A stretch of 64,000 nt of DNA from assembly GCF_030406045.1 (NCBI RefSeq), contig NZ_CP128988.1:2267438-2331437 (forward strand). The letters are read 5' to 3'. Numbering within the stretch: the stretch's first letter is position 1; every line of letters starts with the position of its first letter. Below, in pieces: positions 925 through 57,263 of this stretch. The translations under genes were made by a program, and so were the position numbers. The notes under the pieces were generated by a model that had not been told where the DNA came from, did no database searches, and saw only the letters and a program-made list of their open reading frames with translations. This DNA comes from Thiohalobacter sp. IOR34. GTDB lineage: Bacteria; Pseudomonadota; Gammaproteobacteria; Thiohalobacterales; Thiohalobacteraceae.

Positions 925-2793
925 ATGACGAACAGCCGCACTCCGCATCTTGAAGACTGCCTGCTGTGTTACGGCCAAGCCGATGCGGGCCTGCGCGAGT
1001 TGCAGGCGCGGCTGCGGCGACTGCAGGCAGACAGCGACACGCCGCTCAGCGAACTCATCGCCGCCTACGACGCCTGTTACCCGCGCTTGGAAAGGGCGCT
1101 CTGGCAATGCAGCAAGGACGACGAATTTGCATCCCTGCTGGCGCGTTACCAGGCCCTTTTCCGGGAGCAGGAAAGGCTCATCCAGCAGGATTCCCGCAAC
1201 AGGCGAGCGGGCGATACCCGCCATGACTTCATCCTCGGCATACCGGTCGCCGACCGCCCCGCACACCTGCAGGCCTGCCTGGAGAGCATCCATCAGGTTC
1301 TGGAACGGTTTGGCTATGGCGGAAAACGCGACGGACGTTACGTAAAGATCCGGATTGTGGTCGCCGAAGACAGCCGCCATGAGAGGAACGTCCAGCATCA
1401 CCGGGAACTCGTCGATGAGTATCGGCAGAAAGGCTTGCAGGTCGTCCACTTCGGACAGGATGAGCAATACGCGCTCCTGCAGTCGATACCAGCAGCCGAA
1501 CGCGAACTGCTCGGCAACATCCTCACCCGGCAGCCAAAGGACAGGTTCTATCTCAAGGGGCAGGCCGCCAACCGCAACCTGTGCTACCTGAAGTTTCTGG
1601 AGCTGACGGAAGACAGGGACCGAACGCTGTATTACCTGGTCGACAGCGACCAGGCGTTCTGCGTCAACCGGCAGACCCGGCAGGGCGAGGAGGCCGTCTT
1701 TGCGCTGAACTACTTCCATATCATCGACAGGGTCTTCCGCACCACCGGGACGCTGATGTTGACCGGCAAACTGGTCGGCGACCCACCGGTCTCTCCCGCG
1801 GTGATGGCGGGTGGCTTCCTGGATGACGTCGCGGCCTTCTTTGCGGATCTGGCCGGGCGGCATGCGCACGATGCCTGCAGGTTCCATGCCCTGCCGGAAC
1901 ACCCGACTGGCGACGCCGCCTACCATGACATGGCCGGACTGTTCGGTTTTGCGCACAAAGCGGAGACATTCCCCTACCGGTGCCGGATCCAGGGCCCACA
2001 TGACCATGCCGCCTGCCTGCGGGACTTCAGCCAGCGGCTCAATGCCTTCTTCTTCGGCGAACACCCGACGCGCAGCACGCATTTTGTCTATGGCGACGGC
2101 TTCGACGCGCTCACGCCGGCGCGGACCATCTATCCCGGCAACTACGTCGTCAACTTTGCAGGACTCAAGTACATCATCCCCTTCGGTCATCTGCGGCTGC
2201 GCATGTCCGGCCCCACCGCAGGACGCCTGATCGCTGCGGAGATCGGCCATCGCTTCGCCTCCATCAACATGCCGCACCTGCATCAGCGCACCTCGCAGGC
2301 GGGTTTGCAGGACAATTTCCGGCCCGGCGTAGAGCTGGGCGGGGAAAACGTGCAGCAAGTCGATCTGTCCGACGAGTTCGAGCGCCAGTTCTTCGGTGAT
2401 CTGATGCTGTTCACGACCGAGCGTCTGGTACAGGAGAAGGATGTAAAGCAACCCTTCACGAGGGACTCGGTGAGCCCGATCCTGGCCCGGAAGGAGACGG
2501 AACTGCTGGCGCTGTACCGGCGGAACCGCCAGGCCATCGTGGAGGCAAACAGGAAGCTCGAGGAATACGTATTCCGCGGCGATCAGTGGTGGATGAAATC
2601 GGACTCGTTGGGCAATGCCATGCAGCAGCTGCGCAGCTTCATCAGCAATATCGATTACAATTTTGGCGACCAGTCACCCGCCTGGAAAAAGATCCAGTCG
2701 ATGGAACACCGTGAGATGCGCAAGCGGCAGATCATGGAGGCGTTGACCCACTACCGGCCCGAGCGCGAGGCCTGGGATCGGCTGTTTGCCTAG
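925..2793 (+). CDS. Large glycosyltransferase-like protein of unknown specificity (622 aa)
   Basis: This is a 622-residue cytosolic protein with no signal peptide or membrane segment. Residues 1-100 are helical and charged. From about residue 103 there is a GT-A-like start (LGIPVADRPAHLQACLESI), and at about 236-244 a YLVDSDQAF segment that resembles the metal-binding DxD site of family-2 glycosyltransferases. The C-terminal 150 residues are again helical. I do not recognise a named family. Its closeness to the TPP-enzyme gene upstream (27 bp) and a sulfotransferase-like gene downstream suggests a glycan or surface-polymer cluster. The stop codon TAG lies inside the CTAG end of a 253-bp repeat element. 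Coding on this strand is preferred over the long antisense frame because of the recognisable motifs. Confidence 0.7.
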   Translation: MTNSRTPHLEDCLLCYGQADAGLRELQARLRRLQADSDTPLSELIAAYDACYPRLERALWQCSKDDEFASLLARYQALFREQERLIQQDSRNRRAGDTRHDFILGIPVADRPAHLQACLESIHQVLERFGYGGKRDGRYVKIRIVVAEDSRHERNVQHHRELVDEYRQKGLQVVHFGQDEQYALLQSIPAAERELLGNILTRQPKDRFYLKGQAANRNLCYLKFLELTEDRDRTLYYLVDSDQAFCVNRQTRQGEEAVFALNYFHIIDRVFRTTGTLMLTGKLVGDPPVSPAVMAGGFLDDVAAFFADLAGRHAHDACRFHALPEHPTGDAAYHDMAGLFGFAHKAETFPYRCRIQGPHDHAACLRDFSQRLNAFFFGEHPTRSTHFVYGDGFDALTPARTIYPGNYVVNFAGLKYIIPFGHLRLRMSGPTAGRLIAAEIGHRFASINMPHLHQRTSQAGLQDNFRPGVELGGENVQQVDLSDEFERQFFGDLMLFTTERLVQEKDVKQPFTRDSVSPILARKETELLALYRRNRQAIVEANRKLEEYVFRGDQWWMKSDSLGNAMQQLRSFISNIDYNFGDQSPAWKKIQSMEHREMRKRQIMEALTHYRPEREAWDRLFA

Positions 2794-3042
2794 CCCGGAT
2801 ATTGCACCAAGGCGGCGCGCATGATCGGCGTGTAGACTGACATACAAGGCCGGGAGGCTCGCAAATGGCTCCTCACGGCGGGGTACACTTTGTGCCTATT
2901 CGATGTCAGGCCGACTCTGGCTTCGCATCTTGGGTGATCCTCCTCAAGCCATAGCAACGGCCATGACTTTTCGGACGATTACCCAAGCTGCCTTGCCAGC
3001 CTCGCCCTGAGCATCGAATCCTTGGTGCAATATCCGGGCTAG
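2790..3042. repeat. 253-bp CTAG-bounded inverted-end element, full copy 1
   Basis: The element starts CTAGCCCGGATATTGCACC and ends with the inverse GGTGCAATATCCGGGCTAG, giving about 20-bp inverted ends plus an internal imperfect hairpin in its right half. Two other copies (8709-8961 and 22616-22868) have exactly the same length. It has no coding capacity, so it looks like a MITE-type non-autonomous element. The left CTAG contains the TAG stop codon of the preceding gene, and its right end lies 4 bp beyond the stop codon of the convergent sulfotransferase-like gene. It fills the whole gap between these two genes. Confidence 0.8.
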
Positions 3043-5975: not shown

Positions 5976-6048
5976 CTATCCCGCATATTGCACGAAGGAT
6001 TCGAGTTTCAGGGCGAATCTGGCCAAGCAGTTTCAATATGCGGGCTAT
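5976..6048. repeat. Short (73-bp) derivative of the inverted-end element, flanked by CTAT direct repeats
   Basis: The ends CCCGCATATTGCACGAAGG and CAATATGCGGG are inverted relative to each other and match the 253-bp elements, but the middle is deleted to about 40 bp. Both outer sides carry CTAT, so a 4-bp target duplication is visible here in a non-palindromic form. The right CTAT supplies the TAG stop codon of pgeF on the minus strand (6045-6047). Confidence 0.7.
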
Positions 6049-6806
6049 CCCCCACCCGGCCCGGGTTCGAGCCAGATCAGGCTCGCCATGCGACCGGTAT
6101 CGCCATCGCGGCGGTAGGAGTAGAAGCGGGCCCTGTCCTCGTGGGTGCACCAGTGGCCGCCATACACCGCACGGACGCCGCGCGCCGCCAGCCGCTGCCG
6201 GGCCAGGGCATAAAGATCGGCCCGCCAGCCCCCCGCCTCCCTGTGGAAGGCCGTCGCCGCCGCCGGGTCCGCGGCAACGAAGGCGGCGCGCACCTCGTCC
6301 CCGACCGCGAAGGCACGCGGGCCGATGGCCGGCCCCAGCCATGCGAGCAGCTCGCTGCCGGGGCGATCCATGGCATCGAGGGCCGCCTCGATCACGCCGC
6401 CTGCCAGCCCGCGCCAGCCGGCATGCACCGCCGCCACCCGGCGGCCGGCACGGTCGCAGAGCAACAGCGGCAGACAATCCGCGGTAAGCACGGCGCAGAC
6501 CACGCCGGGCTGCGCGGTGGTGCTGCCATCGGCCCCGGCCGTGCCGCTCAGCCGGGCCGCATCGACGATGCCGGTGCCGTGCACCTGGCGCAGCCAGACC
6601 GGCTCGGCAGGCAACCCCAGTCGCGTCCGCAGGCGCTCGCGGTTGGCGGCCACGGCGGCGGGGTCGTCACCGACGTGATCGGCGAGGTTGAGGCTGTCAT
6701 AGGGCGGCCGGCTGACGCCACCGGCGCGGGTGGTGGTCAGCGCCCGCACGACGGCCGGCGCCGGCCAGTCCGGGATCAGCCAGTCCGCCGTTTCGTCTTC
6801 CCGCAT
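6045..6806 (-). CDS. pgeF: Peptidoglycan editing factor / purine nucleoside phosphorylase (YfiH, laccase-domain)
   Basis: The 253-residue product has the Cu/Zn-binding 'polyphenol oxidase' fold signature: the WLRQVHG stretch, LTADCLPLLL, AAVHAGWRGL, and near the C terminus GGHWCTHED. The Cys and two His residues in these motifs form the metal site. In E. coli, PgeF corrects wrong muropeptides; related proteins phosphorolyse purine nucleosides. The start at 6806 is chosen because AAGGAGGATCACGG precedes it; the frame stays open further upstream but overlaps rluD. The gene lies 61 bp downstream of rluD, the same pair as in E. coli (rluD-yfiH opposite bamD). Its stop codon is provided by a repeat element. 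Confidence 0.92.
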   Translation of the reverse strand: MREDETADWLIPDWPAPAVVRALTTTRAGGVSRPPYDSLNLADHVGDDPAAVAANRERLRTRLGLPAEPVWLRQVHGTGIVDAARLSGTAGADGSTTAQPGVVCAVLTADCLPLLLCDRAGRRVAAVHAGWRGLAGGVIEAALDAMDRPGSELLAWLGPAIGPRAFAVGDEVRAAFVAADPAAATAFHREAGGWRADLYALARQRLAARGVRAVYGGHWCTHEDRARFYSYRRDGDTGRMASLIWLEPGPGGG

Positions 6807-6867
6807 CCGTGATCCTCCTTCACGACCATGTGCCCGGTCTGCCGAACGACGGCGGGCCATGCCCCGC

Positions 6868-7827
6868 CTACCCGGCCGCGTCCTCCCGCAGGGCCGCGAG
6901 CAGGGCCTGGAAATCGGCCGGCGGCGGCGCCTCCCAGGCCATCGTCTCGCCACTTGCCGGATGGTCCAGGACCAGCCGGGTGGCGTGCAGGGCCTGGCGG
7001 CGGAAACCGTGCAGGGTCTGGCGCAGGGCCTCGCCCGCCCCGGCCGGCTGGCGCTGGCGTCCGCCATAGACCGGATCACCGACCAGCGGATGCCGCAACC
7101 AGGCCATGTGCACCCGGATCTGGTGGGTGCGGCCGGTCTCCAACGATACCCGCAGCAGGCTGTGGGCACGGAAGCGCTCCGCCACCCGGTAGTGGGTGAC
7201 GGCCGGCTTGCCGCCGTGCCTGAGCACCGCCATGCGCTTGCGGTCGACGGGGTGACGGCCAATGGGCTGCTCGACGCTGCCGCCCGCCGTCATCACGCCC
7301 CAGACCACGGCCAGGTATTCGCGGCTCACGCTGCGCGCCTGCAGCTGGGCCACCAGCGAGTGATGGGCCGTGAGGGTGCGCGCCACCACCATCAGCCCGC
7401 TTGTGTCCTTGTCCAGGCGGTGCACGATGCCGGCCCGCGGCACGGCGGCCAGGGCCGGGTCATGGTGCAGCAGGGCGTTCTGCAGGGTGCCGTCGGGATT
7501 GCCGGCCGCCGGATGCACCACCAGCCCGGCCGGCTTGTCGATCACCAGCAGCTCGGCATCCTCATGGACGATCTGCAGCGGAATGTCCTGGGCCTCGCAC
7601 CGCCGGTCCTCGGGCAGGCTGGCGGTGATCTCCACCTGCTCGCCGCCGGCCAGCTTGTCGCGCGGCCGGGTCCAGGCCCTGCCGTCGACCTGCACCGCCC
7701 CGGCCCGAACCCAGTGCTGGAGGCGACTGCGGGAATAGTCGGGAAACAGCTCGGCCAGGACCTGGTCGAGGCGCCGCCCGGCCGCCTCTGCCGGTACCCG
7801 GGCGGACAACTGCATCAGTTCTGCCAT
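6868..7827 (-). CDS. rluD: 23S rRNA pseudouridine synthase D
   Basis: The 319-residue protein begins [20 protein letters not shown] and has an N-terminal S4 RNA-binding domain (about 18-75: [20 protein letters not shown]) followed by the RluA-type catalytic domain with the signature [14 protein letters not shown] containing the catalytic Asp (about 143). In E. coli this enzyme makes pseudouridines 1911, 1915 and 1917 of helix 69. Position divergent from bamD and upstream of pgeF supports RluD rather than RluA or RluC. The frame is open upstream to 8592, but that part is antisense to bamD and is discarded. Confidence 0.95.
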
Positions 7828-7846
7828 AACCCACATACTAAGCCAG

Positions 7847-7894
7847 CCTGGATATTGCACCAAGGATTTGCCCTGAGAATCGAATCCTTGGTGC
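7847..7894. repeat. Remnant of the inverted-end element in the rluD-bamD divergent region
   Basis: CCTGGATATTGCACCAAGG and its inverse CCTTGGTGC enclose about 20 bp that end in GAATCC, as in the right end of the 253-bp elements. Terminal CTAG sequences are lost. It lies within the divergent promoter region. Confidence 0.6.
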
Positions 7895-7971
7895 TGGCGG
7901 CAGGCACCGCAGCGCGCCAATTCGGGTATACTTCCGCTTTCCTTGTCAGACGAAAAAGACGGTCGAACCCC

Positions 7972-8712
7972 ATGCCGCTGCTGCGATTGTTCCTGCTGGG
8001 ACTGCTCACCCTCAACCTGCTGGCCGGCTGCTCGCTGCTGCCCGACGAGATCGACGAAACCAAGGGCTGGTCGGCGCAGAAGCTGTATGCCAAGGCCAAG
8101 GAGAACCTCTCCGAGGGCAACTACGAGCGCGCCATCGAGCTGTACGAGAAGCTGGAGGCCCGCTACCCCTTCGGCAGGTACGCCCAGCAGGCGCTGCTGG
8201 AATCGGCCTATGCCTACTACAAGTACGACGAGCCGGACACGGCCATCGCCACCCTCGACCGCTTCATCAAGACCTATCCGCAGCATCCGCATCTGGACTA
8301 CGCCTACTATCTGAAGGGGCTGGTGAACTTCAACCGCGGCCGGAACCTGATCGACCGCTTCCTGCCGCGCGATCCCTCGGAACGCGATCCGGGCGCCGCC
8401 CGCCAGTCGTTCTTCGATTTCCAGACCTTGGTCAAGCGCTTCCCGGCCAGCCCGTACAGCAAGGACGCCACCCAGCGCATGCTGTTCCTGCGCAACAACC
8501 TGGCCAGCTACGAGGTGCACGTGGCCGACTACTACATGCGCCGTCATGCCTACGTCGCTGCCATCAACCGCGCCGAGTACGTCATCGAGCACTTTCCCCG
8601 CACGCCGGCCGTACCCGATGCCCTGGAGATCCTGATCCGTGCCTACCGGATCCTCGATCTGAACGATCTGGCCGAGGATGCGCTGCGGGTCTACCGTCTC
8701 AACTATCCCTAG
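7972..8712 (+). CDS. bamD: Outer membrane protein assembly factor BamD
   Basis: The 246-residue lipoprotein has a signal peptide with lipobox LLAGC (Cys at 20) and several tetratricopeptide-type helical repeats from about residue 35 ([20 protein letters not shown] onward) to the C terminus. BamD is an essential part of the BAM complex that inserts beta-barrel proteins into the outer membrane; it binds BamA at the periplasmic face. Length and divergence from rluD match E. coli yfiO. The TAG stop codon lies in the CTAG start of a 253-bp element. Confidence 0.96.
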
Positions 8713-8961
8713 CCCGCATATTGCACGAAGGCGGCCTTGAAAGCGTAATTTTTCCGGTATTTATCAAGGCAGTGCCCCCTTCTGCGAGCGATTGTGCCCT
8801 GTTACGGTTTGTGCCTATTCGAGTTCAGGCCAAATCTGGCGTCGCATTTTGCCCGATCCCCGTTGAACCATAGCGACGGCTATGCTTCGGCGGGCGATCG
8901 AACAAACTGCTTGGCCAGATTCGCCCTGAAACTCGAATCCTTCGTGCAATATGCGGGCTAG
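8709..8961. repeat. 253-bp CTAG-bounded inverted-end element, full copy 2
   Basis: It starts CTAGCCCGCATATTGCACG and ends with the inverse CGTGCAATATGCGGGCTAG. Length equals that of the copies at 2790 and 22616. The inner right half (CAGGCCAAATCTGGC ... GCCAGATTCGCCCTG) folds back on itself around CCATAGC/GCTATG. The left CTAG contains the bamD stop codon. With the REP pair and terminator that follow, it accounts for the 540-bp gap between bamD and glnB. Confidence 0.8.
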
Positions 8962-9019
8962 CACCAAGGCAGGCTCCGTGGGCCGGGGTGGCAGGATGGC
9001 GCGGTACCCCTTGCGCCCC

Positions 9020-9099
9020 GATCGCGGCCTGGGGGCCGCTCCTACGACAACACATATTGTGCCGCCATGCCCCGTAGGAACGGCCTCCAGGCCGCGATC
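9020..9099. repeat. REP/BIME-like inverted pair 1
   Basis: GATCGCGGCCTGGGGGCCGC is followed 40 bp later by its inverse, GGCCTCCAGGCCGCGATC, with CTCCTAC/GTAGGA at the inner ends. The spacer contains ATTGTGCCGCCATGCCCC, which recurs (inverted) in other copies. The 90 bp beyond it (9103-9193) repeat internal sequence of the 253-bp element family. Confidence 0.8.
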
Positions 9100-9205
9100 G
9101 GGAGGCCACGGCGGGCAATGCCCGGAATCAAGCGAACAGGCACAAAGCCGGGTTAATATCAGCCTGCACGCCGCTCATGCGGGCTGGCTGTAGCCTCTCC
9201 AGAAC

Positions 9206-22032: not shown

Positions 22033-22650
22033 ATGCTGATCATCGGACTCACAGGCGGCATCGGCAGCGGCAAGTCGACCGCGGCGGAGCAATTCGCCAG
22101 CCTGGGCATTCCCGTCATCGATGCCGACGAAATCGCTCACCGGCTGGTCGAGCCTGGCAACCCGGCGCTGGACGAGATCGCCGCCACCTTCGGCGACCGG
22201 TTCCTCACCGGCGACGGCCGGCTGGACCGCGCCCGGCTGCGGCAGGCAGTCTTCGCCGACCCCGCGCAGCGCCGGCGGCTGGAGGCCATCCTCCACCCGC
22301 GCATCCGCCGGGCCATGCTGGAGGCGGCCAGGTCGCTGGATGCGCCCTACTGCCTGTTCGTGATTCCGCTGCTGATCGAGAGCGGCTGGCGTGACCTGGT
22401 CGACCGCGTCCTGGTGATCGACTGCCCGGAAACCCTGCAGCGGCAGCGGGTCCGGGAACGCGGTCTGGATGAGGCGCAGATCGACGCCATTCTCGCCGCC
22501 CAGGCCAGCCGCGAGCAGCGCCTCGCGGCTGCCGACGACATCATCCGCAACGACGGGGATCTGCAGCAGCTCAAGGAACAGGTCGGGGCGCTGCACCGCA
22601 AGTACCTCGAACTGGTTAGCCCGGATATTGCTCCAAGGCGGCCCGCATGA
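22033..22650 (+). CDS. coaE: Dephospho-CoA kinase
   Basis: CoaE phosphorylates dephospho-CoA, the last step of CoA synthesis. The P-loop GGIGSGKS is at residues 8-15, followed by VIDADEIAHRLVEPG and the lid region with RVRERG. Total length is 205 residues. The last 10 to 11 codons (from Ser-Pro-Asp-Ile) are encoded by the left end of a 253-bp repeat element: the element's TTAG lies out of frame, so translation runs into it and stops at TGA 34 bp inside. The natural C terminus was probably shorter by about 10 residues. Confidence 0.95.
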   Translation: MLIIGLTGGIGSGKSTAAEQFASLGIPVIDADEIAHRLVEPGNPALDEIAATFGDRFLTGDGRLDRARLRQAVFADPAQRRRLEAILHPRIRRAMLEAARSLDAPYCLFVIPLLIESGWRDLVDRVLVIDCPETLQRQRVRERGLDEAQIDAILAAQASREQRLAAADDIIRNDGDLQQLKEQVGALHRKYLELVSPDIAPRRPA

Positions 22651-22868
22651 TCGGCCTGCAGACTGACATACAAGGCCGGGAGGCTCGCAAATGGCTCCTC
22701 ACGGCGGGGTATGGTTTGCGCCTATTCGATCTCAGAACGCATCTGGCTGCGCATCCTGGCCGATCCCCCTTGAACCATAGCTACGGCTATGCTTCCGCGG
22801 GTGATCGGCCAGGCTGCTTTGCCAGCTCCGCCCTGAGATTCGAATCCTTGGTGCAATATCCGGGCTAG
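22616..22868. repeat. 253-bp inverted-end element, full copy 3 (left end inside coaE)
   Basis: It starts TTAGCCCGGATATTGCTCC and ends GGTGCAATATCCGGGCTAG, with the same length and internal layout as copies 1 and 2. It differs from copy 1 by scattered substitutions only. The left TTAG is not in the coaE reading frame, so the gene reads into the element. Confidence 0.8.
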
Positions 22869-22896
22869 CTAGCCCGGGCATTGTCCGCCGTGGATG

Positions 22897-22974
22897 GATC
22901 GCGGCCTGGAGGCCGCTCCTACGTACGGGGCATGGCGGCACAATATGCGTAGGAGCGGCCTCCAGGCCGCGATC
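22897..22974. repeat. REP/BIME-like inverted pair 2
   Basis: GATCGCGGCCTGGAGGCCGC...TAC and its exact inverse flank the spacer GGGGCATGGCGGCACAATAT. Together with the adjacent repeat element and a hairpin at 23050-23080 (CAGCCGGGCTGG / CCAGCCCGGCTG), it accounts for the 486-bp coaE-zapD gap. The hairpin lacks a T-tract. Confidence 0.85.
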
Positions 22975-23136
22975 GAGGTACAAGGGCGGGCACCGCCCCC
23001 ATCCTGCCACCTCGACAGATCTCACCCCACGGAGCTTGCCTTGGCGCAACAGCCGGGCTGGGCATTTGCCAGCCCGGCTGGCGTGTTGGACAATAGGATG
23101 ATCTGGTCCGACCCGCGAACTGGCGCCGCCCCACCC

Positions 23137-24017: not shown

Positions 24018-24147
24018 ACAGCCCGGATATTGCATCGGGATCCCGGATGATGGCGTGCCTGGACCCGCCGGGGATCGCGGCCTGGAGGCCGCTCCTACGG
24101 GGCATGGCGGCACAATATGTTGTAGGAGCGGCCTCCAGGCCGCGATC
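24018..24147. repeat. Left end of the inverted-end element followed by REP/BIME-like pair 3
   Basis: ACAGCCCGGATATTGCATC is the left end of the 253-bp family; the rest is replaced by GATGATGGCGTGCCTGGACCCGCC (split here for length) and a REP pair at 24073-24147. The same composite arrangement occurs at 35278-35411, so the REP pair probably inserted into, or travelled with, this element. Confidence 0.7.
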
Positions 24148-24264
24148 GGCGTGGTGTTGAACATTATTAACCCACCCAGGAGGCATTTCATCGCCATGTC
24201 ATCCTTGTTTTACAGCTCGAACCCCATTCATGCGAGCCGCCTTGGCGCAATAGGCGGGCCAGCC

Positions 24265-27929: not shown

Positions 27930-28009
27930 GCGGGGATCTTAACGTAGGGTGCGCACCGCGCACCAGACGTCAGAAAAGTGAACGCACGATGTTTCTACCA
28001 CCACAAACA

Positions 28010-28092
28010 CTGGCTCCTGGCTCCTGAATTCCGGCTCCTGAATTCTGAATTCTGAATTCTGAATTCTGGCTCCTGAATTCTGGCTCCTGAAT

Positions 28093-28095
<3 letters not shown>
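28010..28095 (-). repeat. Heptanucleotide array beginning at the secA stop codon
   Basis: On the minus strand the secA stop codon TAA opens directly into twelve in-phase heptamers of two types, GAATTCA and GGAGCCA (with AAATTCA and GGAGCCG as variants). No insertion or deletion breaks the 7-base phase. The purine-rich strand is the sense strand of secA. Confidence 0.85.
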
Positions 28096-30807
<2,712 letters not shown>

Positions 30808-34873: not shown

Positions 34874-35281
34874 ATGAAACCGATCACACAGGCACTCGCC
34901 CCCCTGCTGCTGGCCGCCGCCCTGGGCGCCAGCCCGCTGGCACTGGCCGACCACCATGGCGATCGCTATGGCTACGCTCATGAGGATGAGGATTACCATG
35001 ACTACGGCGCCCGTCATGAGGCGCACTACTGCCCGCCGGCGCGCCGCCGGCACCGGGAAGGTCGCGTCGAGAGGGTGATCCACGCGCCGGTCATCGTGCC
35101 CGCGCCTGCCTATGGCTACCGCCAGCCGCGACAGGGCTATCGCTCCAGTACGCCGATGATTCTCGGCGGCATCATCGGCGGCCTCGCCGGCCATGAGATG
35201 GGCAAGGGCCGGGGCAAGGACATCGCCACGGCGGCGGGCATTCTGCTCGGCGGCTCGATCGGCCGGGATCTGGGGCACTAG
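34874..35281 (+). CDS. Exported glycine-zipper (17-kDa-antigen-like) protein
   Basis: The 135-residue protein has a Sec signal peptide ending around ALADHH (residues 1-25), a His/Tyr/Asp-rich region (25-60), a basic region, and a C-terminal glycine zipper (MILGGIIGGLAGHEMGKGRGKDIATAAG in two halves) like that of Rickettsia 17-kDa antigen family proteins. An outer-membrane or periplasmic location is expected, but there is no lipobox. The TAG stop codon is part of the CTAG end of a repeat element. A ribosome-binding site (AGGAGA) precedes the ATG. Confidence 0.8.
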   Translation: MKPITQALAPLLLAAALGASPLALADHHGDRYGYAHEDEDYHDYGARHEAHYCPPARRRHREGRVERVIHAPVIVPAPAYGYRQPRQGYRSSTPMILGGIIGGLAGHEMGKGRGKDIATAAGILLGGSIGRDLGH

Positions 35282-35527
35282 CCCGGATATTGCACCAAGC
35301 CCCCCGGATGATGGCGTGGCTGGACCCGCCGGGGATCGCGGCCTGGAGACCGCTCCTACGGGGCATGGCGGCACAATGTGTTGTCGTAGGAGCGGTCTCC
35401 AGGCCGCGATCGAGGCGCAAGGGGTATCGCGCCATCCTGCCACCCCGGCCCACGGAGCCAACAACACCAAGTTGCCATTTTGGCGCCCTCGGCGTCTTGG
35501 CGGCTCACAACCAGATTTGATCAGACA
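35278..35527. repeat. Composite repeat block: inverted-end element left end, REP pair 4, half GCCGCCAAGG element
   Basis: CTAGCCCGGATATTGCACC (35278) is followed by the same linker as at 24031-24072, then a REP pair (35334-35411) with spacer GGGGCATGGCGGCACAAT, then TTGGCGCCCTCGGCGTCTTGG and ATTTGATCA, the right half of the element at 23911-24008. Together with 35528-35623, where nothing else was recognised, it fills the gap before tRNA-Lys. Confidence 0.75.
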
Positions 35528-40746: not shown

Positions 40747-40870
40747 GCACGCAGTCTACCCCAGCCGTCCCTGCCGGTCATGGACTCCCCCGCCGGATGC
40801 AGGGGAGTTTCGCAGGTTTTCTTAGCAGCCTGTCGGACTTAGCCCGCAGCAGCCAGGAAGCTTCCGTGTT

Positions 40871-41239
40871 TTTCCGTGGATTCCGTGGCCATCGGTCTTT
40901 TCGTGGGTTTCGCGGATTTCGTGGCCATCGTCGTTTCCGTCAACGGCAGGTGATGCCACCTCGATCGCGGCCTGGAGGCCGCTCCTACAATGTTTTCCGT
41001 GGATTCCGTGGCCATCGGTCTTTTCGTGGGTTTCGCGGGTTTCGTGGCCATCGTCGTTTCCGTCAACGGCAGGTGATGCCACCTCGATCGCGGCCTGGAG
41101 GCCGCTCCTACAATGTTTTCCGTGGATTCCGTGGCCATCGGCCTTTTCGTGGGTTTCGCGGGTTTCGTGGCCATCGTCGTTTCCGTCAACGGCAGGTGAT
41201 GCCACCTCGATCGCGGCCTGGAGGCCGCTCCTACGGGGC
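40871..41239. repeat. Three tandem 123-bp repeats in the queE-cpoB gap
   Basis: Units begin at 40871, 40994 and 41117 (TTTCCGTGGATTCCGTGGCC) and are almost identical. Each unit contains two forms of the CCACGG-type repeat, GTTTCCGTCAACGGCAGGTG, and one REP half (GATCGCGGCCTGGAGGCCGC). Since 123 is a multiple of three, open frames run through on both strands; the plus-strand frame would encode Arg/Phe/Gly-rich 41-residue repeats. I regard these frames as non-coding. Confidence 0.9.
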
Positions 41240-41396
41240 ATGGCGGCACAATGTGTGTCGTAGGAGCGGCCTCCAGGCCGCGATCGGGGGATCCACGGCG
41301 GGCAATGCCCGGAGTCGATCGAACAGGCACAAAGCCGGGTTAATACCAGCCCGCACGCCGATCATGCGCGCCGCCCTGGTGCAATATCCGGGTTAG
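41209..41396. repeat. REP/BIME-like pair 6 and right end of an inverted-end element
   Basis: A REP pair (41209-41285, spacer GGGGCATGGCGGCACAATGT) continues into CGGGCAATGCCCGGAGTCGA (as at 9113) and then into the right end of the 253-bp family, GGTGCAATATCCGGGTTAG, ending at 41396. On the minus strand this TTAG region provides the TAA stop codon of cpoB (41393-41395). Confidence 0.78.
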
Positions 41397-56848: not shown

Positions 56849-56886
56849 GAGCTGGGAGTTAGGAGCTGGGAGCTGGGAGCTGGAAG
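56834..56886 (+). repeat. Heptanucleotide array spanning the ABC exporter stop codon
   Basis: Nine in-phase heptamers (GGAGCTT, GAAGCTG, GGAGTTA, GGAGCTG, GGAGTTA, GGAGCTG three times, GAAGAGC) begin inside the coding sequence and run past it; the third heptamer supplies the TAG stop codon. The purine-rich strand is again the sense strand. Two further heptamers (GGAGCTG, GGAGTCA) occur at 57090 beyond an inserted repeat composite. Confidence 0.85.
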
Positions 56887-56905
56887 AGCGGGCAGTGCCC
56901 GCCTC

Positions 56906-57090
56906 GATCGCGGCCTGGAGGCCGCTCCTACACCATATTGTGCCGCCACGCCCCGTAGGAGCGGTCTCCAGGCCGCGATACCCGGAGTCAATCGAATAGG
57001 CGCAACCTGTACCGTTGATGGCCGCCACGGCCCTGGATAACAGGATGAACGCCGATCATACGGGCCGCCTTGGTGCAATATGCGGGCTAG
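56906..57090. repeat. REP/BIME-like pair 7 and right end of an inverted-end element
   Basis: A REP pair (56906-56980, spacer with ATATTGTGCCGCCACGCCCC) is followed by a degenerate copy of the 253-bp element right half, ending GGTGCAATATGCGGGCTAG at 57090. Heptamers flank both sides, so this composite seems to have inserted into a heptamer array. Confidence 0.75.
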
Positions 57091-57125
57091 GAGCTGGGAG
57101 TCAGAAGGGTGGGCACAGCCCGCCC

Positions 57126-57263
57126 TTCTGACTTCTGACTTCTGACTTCTGACTTCTGACTTCTGACTTCTGACTTCTGACTTCTGACTTCTGACTTCTG
57201 ACTTCTGACTTCTGACTTCTGACTTCTGACTTCTGAATTCTGGATCCCGGACCCCGGATCCTA
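57126..57263 (-). repeat. Heptanucleotide array beginning at the PilZ gene stop codon
   Basis: On the minus strand the TAG stop codon of the PilZ gene opens into GGATCCG, GGGTCCG, GGATCCA, GAATTCA and then 15 perfect copies of GAAGTCA, all in 7-base phase. The perfect part suggests recent expansion. There are no spacers, so it is not a CRISPR array. Confidence 0.93.

Follow-up and report, generated by a model that had tools for sequence, protein, structure and literature searches.

Related elements

ERIC/IRU of the enterobacteria and NEMIS (Correia) of Neisseria are short, gene-less repeats that occur in many intergenic copies and contain an imperfect palindrome; both duplicate TA and have ends other than those described below. 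YTAR is a target of IS5-type elements. Insertion sequences (IS) of the IS1380 family (NCBIfam NF033539, Pfam PF13701) have terminal inverted repeats of the CCCGSATATTGCA type and duplicate 4 bp, CTAG or CTAA. IS1380 has served as the prokaryotic outgroup for the eukaryotic piggyBac superfamily, which has CCC ends and a TTAA duplication; the relationship between the transposases is reported only as distant (PMC10813416).

The window analyzed here, a stretch of 64,000 nucleotides from Thiohalobacter sp. IOR34, contains copies of a 245-bp element with a 4-bp duplication on each side (253 bp when counted with both flanks). Like ERIC/IRU and NEMIS, the element is short, gene-less, multicopy, and intergenic, and it contains an imperfect palindrome; unlike them, it has a 4-bp YTAR duplication, IS1380 ends, and a hairpin that is confined to one half. 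It resembles the IS1380-family IS in its inverted repeats and duplications, but it is only 245 bp, lacks a transposase, and has just ~15-17 end bases in common with them. Its YTAR|CCC junction also agrees with the 4-bp TTAA-like duplication and CCC ends of piggyBac. The element is a MITE, given its short length, terminal inverted repeats, target duplication, dispersed copies, and empty site; its design is a known one, with an unusually well conserved, structured interior. In the literature searched, the coverage of which was partial, no IS1380-linked MITE was found.

Copies within the window

Copy 1 (2794..3038, + strand, sub-family A1) lies between CTAG at 2790..2793, whose TAG is the stop codon of the ORF at 925-2793, and CTAG at 3039..3042. 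Its left terminal inverted repeat, CCCGGATATTGCACCAAGG, is at 2794..2812 (+ strand), its right one at 3020..3038 (- strand), and an internal imperfect hairpin extends from 2899 to 3019 (+ strand). Copy 2 (8713..8957, + strand, sub-family B) is also flanked by CTAG on both sides, the left CTAG containing the stop codon of the ORF at 6730-8712. Copy 3 (22620..22864, + strand, sub-family A2) has TTAG on the left and CTAG on the right. The original prediction had placed these copies, with their flanks, at 2790-3042, 8709-8961, and 22616-22868, and they are present there with the flanks and inverted ends that it described. The terminal inverted repeats are 19 bp and near perfect, CCCG[G/C]ATATTGCAC[C/G]AAGG; two end types, CCCGGATATTGCACCAAGG and CCCGCATATTGCACGAAGG, are found among the window copies. 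An imperfect palindrome (73-76% over 124 nt) makes up the right half. At 245 bp the element is too short for a transposase gene, as befits a MITE.

A 73-bp derivative noticed earlier at 5976-6048 is also real. It is an internal-deletion derivative of 65 bp (5980..6044, - strand) between two CTATs (5976-5979 and 6045-6048), and 54 of its 65 bp are identical to the right end of sub-family B. Most of the supposed partial copies (24018, 35278, 41286-41396, and 56981-57090), together with 8961-9189 and 22873-23057, fit better as diverged sub-families of ~237-270 bp than as truncated copies of the 245-bp element. The members are located at 8961..9189 (- strand; REP-containing, ~270 bp type, adjoining copy 2), 22873..23057 (+ strand; adjoining copy 3), 24022..24258 (- strand; degenerate ends, flanks ACAG/CCAG), 35226..35459 (+ strand; REP-containing), 41202..41392 (- strand; REP-containing), and 56885..57086 (- strand). 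Several such diverged elements have a REP-like palindrome, and they often lie immediately next to a 245-bp copy. The REP-like repeat, GTAGGAGCGGCCTCCAGGCCGCGATC, is present eight times in the window (at 9069, 17038, 22944, 24117, 35381, 37915, 41255, and 56950). Other repeats in the window are heptamer tandem arrays (CTTCTGA and relatives) at 57125-57250 and 28007-28104, and three tandem 123-bp units, 96-99% identical, at 40870-41238.

Copy number and sub-families

The genome, a single contig of 2,961,281 bases, has roughly 200 copies of this gene-less element. With up to 2 mismatches allowed, the 19-bp end matches 409 times (200 forward, 209 reverse), while the reversed pattern, used as a control, has 0 matches in the whole genome. 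At a looser setting, the window contains 14 end matches versus 0-2 per shuffled window. A search with copy 1, in which 40 of 282 candidates were scored, gave at least 43 near-full copies. Pairing of ends was examined in 520 kb of the 2.96-Mb genome, that is, the window and fetched regions, many of which were picked around known copies; here the inverted pairs extend well beyond the three original copies, to 52 paired elements that measure 230-275 bp (243-246 bp in 44 cases).

Each of the main sub-families comprises 5-17 members, which are 92-93% alike within and about 76-86% alike between sub-families. Because even the closest pairs are only 98% identical, no very recent move is proven. Elsewhere in the genome, four same-strand 19-bp ends (at 584398, 584526, 584654, and 584782) follow one another at intervals of exactly 128 bp, with CTGG before each, and constitute a tandem array of one-ended element pieces. 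A pair of ends that spans 1,561 bp (2355645-2357205) was considered as a full IS and rejected, since its open frames contain no recognizable transposase.

Target-site duplication and the empty site

Flanks of the CTAG/CTAG type are by themselves ambiguous, because CTAG is its own reverse complement and could be part of the inverted end. Among the 52 paired elements, identical flanks other than CTAG are observed 13 times, as against at most 8 in 20,000 permutations (0/20000 reach 13). Such flanks are direct repeats, TTAG/TTAG (4), CTAA/CTAA (3), CTAT/CTAT, CAAG/CAAG, and CTCA/CTCA, and an inverted TTAG/CTAA pair is found in none of the 52. The two sides agree at the first base (p=1.2e-6) and the last base (p=3.5e-4), and the test for inverted flanks is not significant (p=0.24). 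Since the flanking 4-mers match far above chance, they are true duplications of a YTAR target. A 2-bp TA duplication of the IS630 type was rejected, because the two sides agree at the outer bases too and because the pairs CTCA/CTCA, CAAG/CAAG, and CTAT/CTAT occur.

One copy (2378411-2378655 of the genome) separates mraZ from rsmH, genes that are adjacent in most family members examined. In the relative G001, the site is empty (...CACTCTAGAAG|ATG of rsmH), and a single CTAG contains the mraZ stop codon. In the studied genome, the occupied site reads mraZ ...CCCTCTAG-[245 bp]-CTAGTG|ATG of rsmH, and both genes are intact. The empty-site evidence is thus one locus, in a relative of another genus, and it is of the kind that had been foreseen, an unoccupied site with a single CTAG. 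Together with the flank statistics on the 52 elements, it bears out the claim of transposition with a 4-bp YTAR duplication. A different palindromic insertion, with ends GGCCTGCTGGTGCCCGCCACACCATGG and CTAG on both sides, lies between mraZ and rsmH in another genome (G006), at the same mraZ stop codon; the two insertions are apparently independent.

Insertion at stop codons

Genes were called with a simple codon-model gene caller made for this analysis, and by these rough calls no gene fully encloses any of 57 elements. In about a third of the full elements (19/52), the stop codon of a flanking gene lies within the duplication. Of the YTAR sites that carry no element in these stretches, 48 are in stop codons, 314 in intergenic DNA, and 43 in coding DNA; since these sites are mostly outside coding DNA, the target by itself goes most of the way to explaining why insertions spare genes. 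An excess at stop codons beyond that given by the target (odds ratio 3.8, p=1.5e-4) is suggestive; it depends on the rough gene calls, and the intergenic YTAR counts behind it include the ends of older copies. With respect to the stop-bearing gene, the element is oriented at random (10 versus 9). A YTAR target in a GC-rich genome thus steers insertions into stop codons, each of which is then rebuilt by the duplication.

The parent family

As judged by its ends and duplication, the element has IS1380, not IS5, as its parent family, the autonomous partner being missing from the studied genome. Elements of the IS1380 family were searched for through PF13701 in 369 genomes of the class. They have CCC-starting ends, and six of them (L133, L135, L136, L147, L160, and L065) have CTAG or CTAA duplications. 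The ends are CCCGGATATTTCAC in L133, CCCGCATTTCTCACC in L135 and L136, CCCGGATATTGCCCGAAG/CCCAGATATTGCACGAGT in L160, whose transposase is decayed, and CCCCAATTCGACATTAG in L065, which comes from the same bacterial family as the studied genome and has a CTAA duplication. The best match, L132, is an intact 1,637-bp IS of another gammaproteobacterium. It encodes a 448-aa transposase that scores 423.9 bits against NF033539 (cut-off 180), and its ends, CCCGCATATTGCATCA and CCCGCATATTGCACCA(A), are near-identical to those of the element over 15-17 bases. This end motif occurs exactly twice in the 2.3-Mb genome, at both ends of the IS; its two flanks, TTAG and CTGA, differ from each other and so do not make an exact duplication. 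The ends of the element thus equal those of IS1380-family IS, as seen with L132 (15-17 bases), L160, and L133. The genome that holds L160 (G324) also has these ends as a pair that spans 216 bp without a gene and is flanked by CGAG/CGAG, so that IS and miniature form coexist there.

The original prediction proposed looking for a full IS with the same ends and a transposase. No autonomous IS with these exact ends was found in the studied genome or its close relatives, and near-identical ends are found with L132, in another family of the class. No IS1380 transposase was detected in the studied genome, G001, G004, or G008, either by PF13701 above the cut-off or by tblastn with the L132 transposase. 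Most other element-bearing genomes also lack one, although many are drafts, in which absence is weak evidence. Proteins of the studied genome with weak PF13701 matches were rejected as IS1380 transposases: they match DDE_Tnp_1 better and are without these ends.

Our preferred explanation, which we hold to be very probably correct, is that the element is an IS1380-end MITE moved by a transposase acting in trans, with a 4-bp YTAR duplication, whose copies are relics of past bursts and whose hairpin was kept among the source copies. An IS1380-type DDE transposase would have recognized the CCCG[G/C]ATATTGCAC[C/G] ends, as the match between the ends suggests, and would have linked the element to the staggered ends of a cut 4-bp YTAR site, giving the CTAG/TTAG/CTAA/TTAA duplications that are seen. 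YTAR is rare in the genes of this 66% GC genome, so that insertions fall in intergenic DNA or in stop codons, and in the latter the duplicated TAR restores the stop, as is observed. Since no such transposase can be detected in the genome today, the copies look like orphans and are probably left over from past bursts. The ~121-nt hairpin would have been kept paired among source copies and most likely aids mobilization or tolerance, as a DNA cruciform or as RNA.

Two other origins can be weighed against this one. The original prediction had assigned the element to an IS5-like family; the YTAR target is indeed of the IS5 type, and IS5-family elements of the studied genome (L066, L068-L070, and L076) also insert at CTAG. 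However, a 4-bp YTAR target is common to the IS5 and IS1380 elements here and so is not diagnostic, and the IS5-family ends in this genome, GGAAC(G/C)TCTGATCAAT and GGCGTGTTAACACTAAT, start with GG and are unrelated to CCCGGATATTGCACC, in contrast to the CCC-starting ends and CTAG/CTAA duplications of IS1380 elements. Furthermore, the 19-bp end borders none of 14 DDE_Tnp_1 and 5 DUF772 loci in four genomes. Descent from an IS5-family element is therefore largely refuted and very improbable. Copying by segmental duplication or recombination, rather than by transposition, has virtually no likelihood: we found no support for it, and it is refuted by the 4-bp duplications, the precise empty site, and the lack of the shared extended flanks that had been named as its sign, the alignments of copies ending at the duplications. 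With the assignment to IS1380, the family of an abundant bacterial repeat is corrected, and IS1380, used as prokaryotic outgroup for piggyBac, is linked to MITE amplification.

The same anatomy recurs in elements from further genera of the family, from Thioalkalivibrio denitrificans, and from gammaproteobacterial MAGs. A degenerate end pattern finds 27 stretches over GTDB; the exact pattern, which is too strict, finds no match there, and plasmids and viral contigs contain no match to the element.

The hairpin

Positions 106-226 of the element fold into one long imperfect hairpin, with z-scores of -7.3 (copy 1), -10.5, and -9.1 in the three window copies; the left part of the element has a z-score of -0.2. 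A consensus was derived with RNAalifold from 44 aligned hairpins (33 own, 11 foreign), in which pairing holds in 96.9% of cells. Double-sided (compensatory) changes are present at 18 of 35 pairs (122 cells), a level that 0/500 shuffles reach. When the alignment is slid by one column, pairing falls to 32-38% and compensated pairs to 1-5 versus 18. Although relatedness inflates the cell counts and the alignment also supplied the structure, the slid controls have far fewer such pairs. One-sided G-U cells are few, 16 versus 122 double-sided, as might be expected if the structure mattered as DNA or, alternatively, if arm-templated correction took place. Stems, as defined by sub-family consensus folds, carry 0.10 private mutations per site, fewer than the loops (0.23), the ends (0.21), and the left part (0.18), with p=0.004-0.02. 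The covarying hairpin raises the question of what in MITE mobilization, or in tolerance by the host, requires a structured interior.

A role in the element's own mobilization or tolerance is favored, because neither orientation nor position shows a host pattern. It is possible, if not quite probable, that the ~121-nt hairpin is a functional, structure-selected module, as DNA cruciform or RNA, and that it marks out an ancient class of IS1380-end MITEs, which would extend across the gammaproteobacteria and persist in many genomes that have no IS1380 transposase. The pairing might instead arise without selection, through arm-templated correction of a DNA quasi-palindrome, an account that bears on the hairpin alone and does not conflict with the MITE reading. 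The preponderance of double-sided over one-sided changes and the low rate of private mutation in stems speak for such correction; private stem changes are mostly uncorrected, however, and bulges and mismatches persist where correction would have removed them, so that we regard it as rather doubtful. It is unlikely that the host keeps the element because its hairpin acts in RNA stability or termination or as a structured RNA, with spread being secondary. The hairpin does covary across genera, private mutations are less frequent in its stems, and one copy does sit in the mraZ-rsmH junction with both genes intact. Yet the random orientation relative to stop-bearing genes and a position largely explained by YTAR occurrence argue against a host role; moreover, of 28 private stem changes, 19 break a pair and 1 is compensated, and Rfam has no match to the element above threshold.

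Selection while source copies were moving, as in the IS1380-end MITE explanation, can also be followed at the ends. Mutations shared within sub-families are nearly absent from the ends (6 versus 313 inside; Fisher p=5e-10), a deficit that may be somewhat helped by the end filter, which disfavors end mutations. Private (post-insertion) mutations amount to 0.21 per site in the ends versus 0.15 inside (p=0.13), a result that this filter makes conservative. Since shared mutations are rare in the ends and private ones are not rarer there, selection acted on the ends while the source copies moved, not after insertion. This pattern is the mark of a mobile element.
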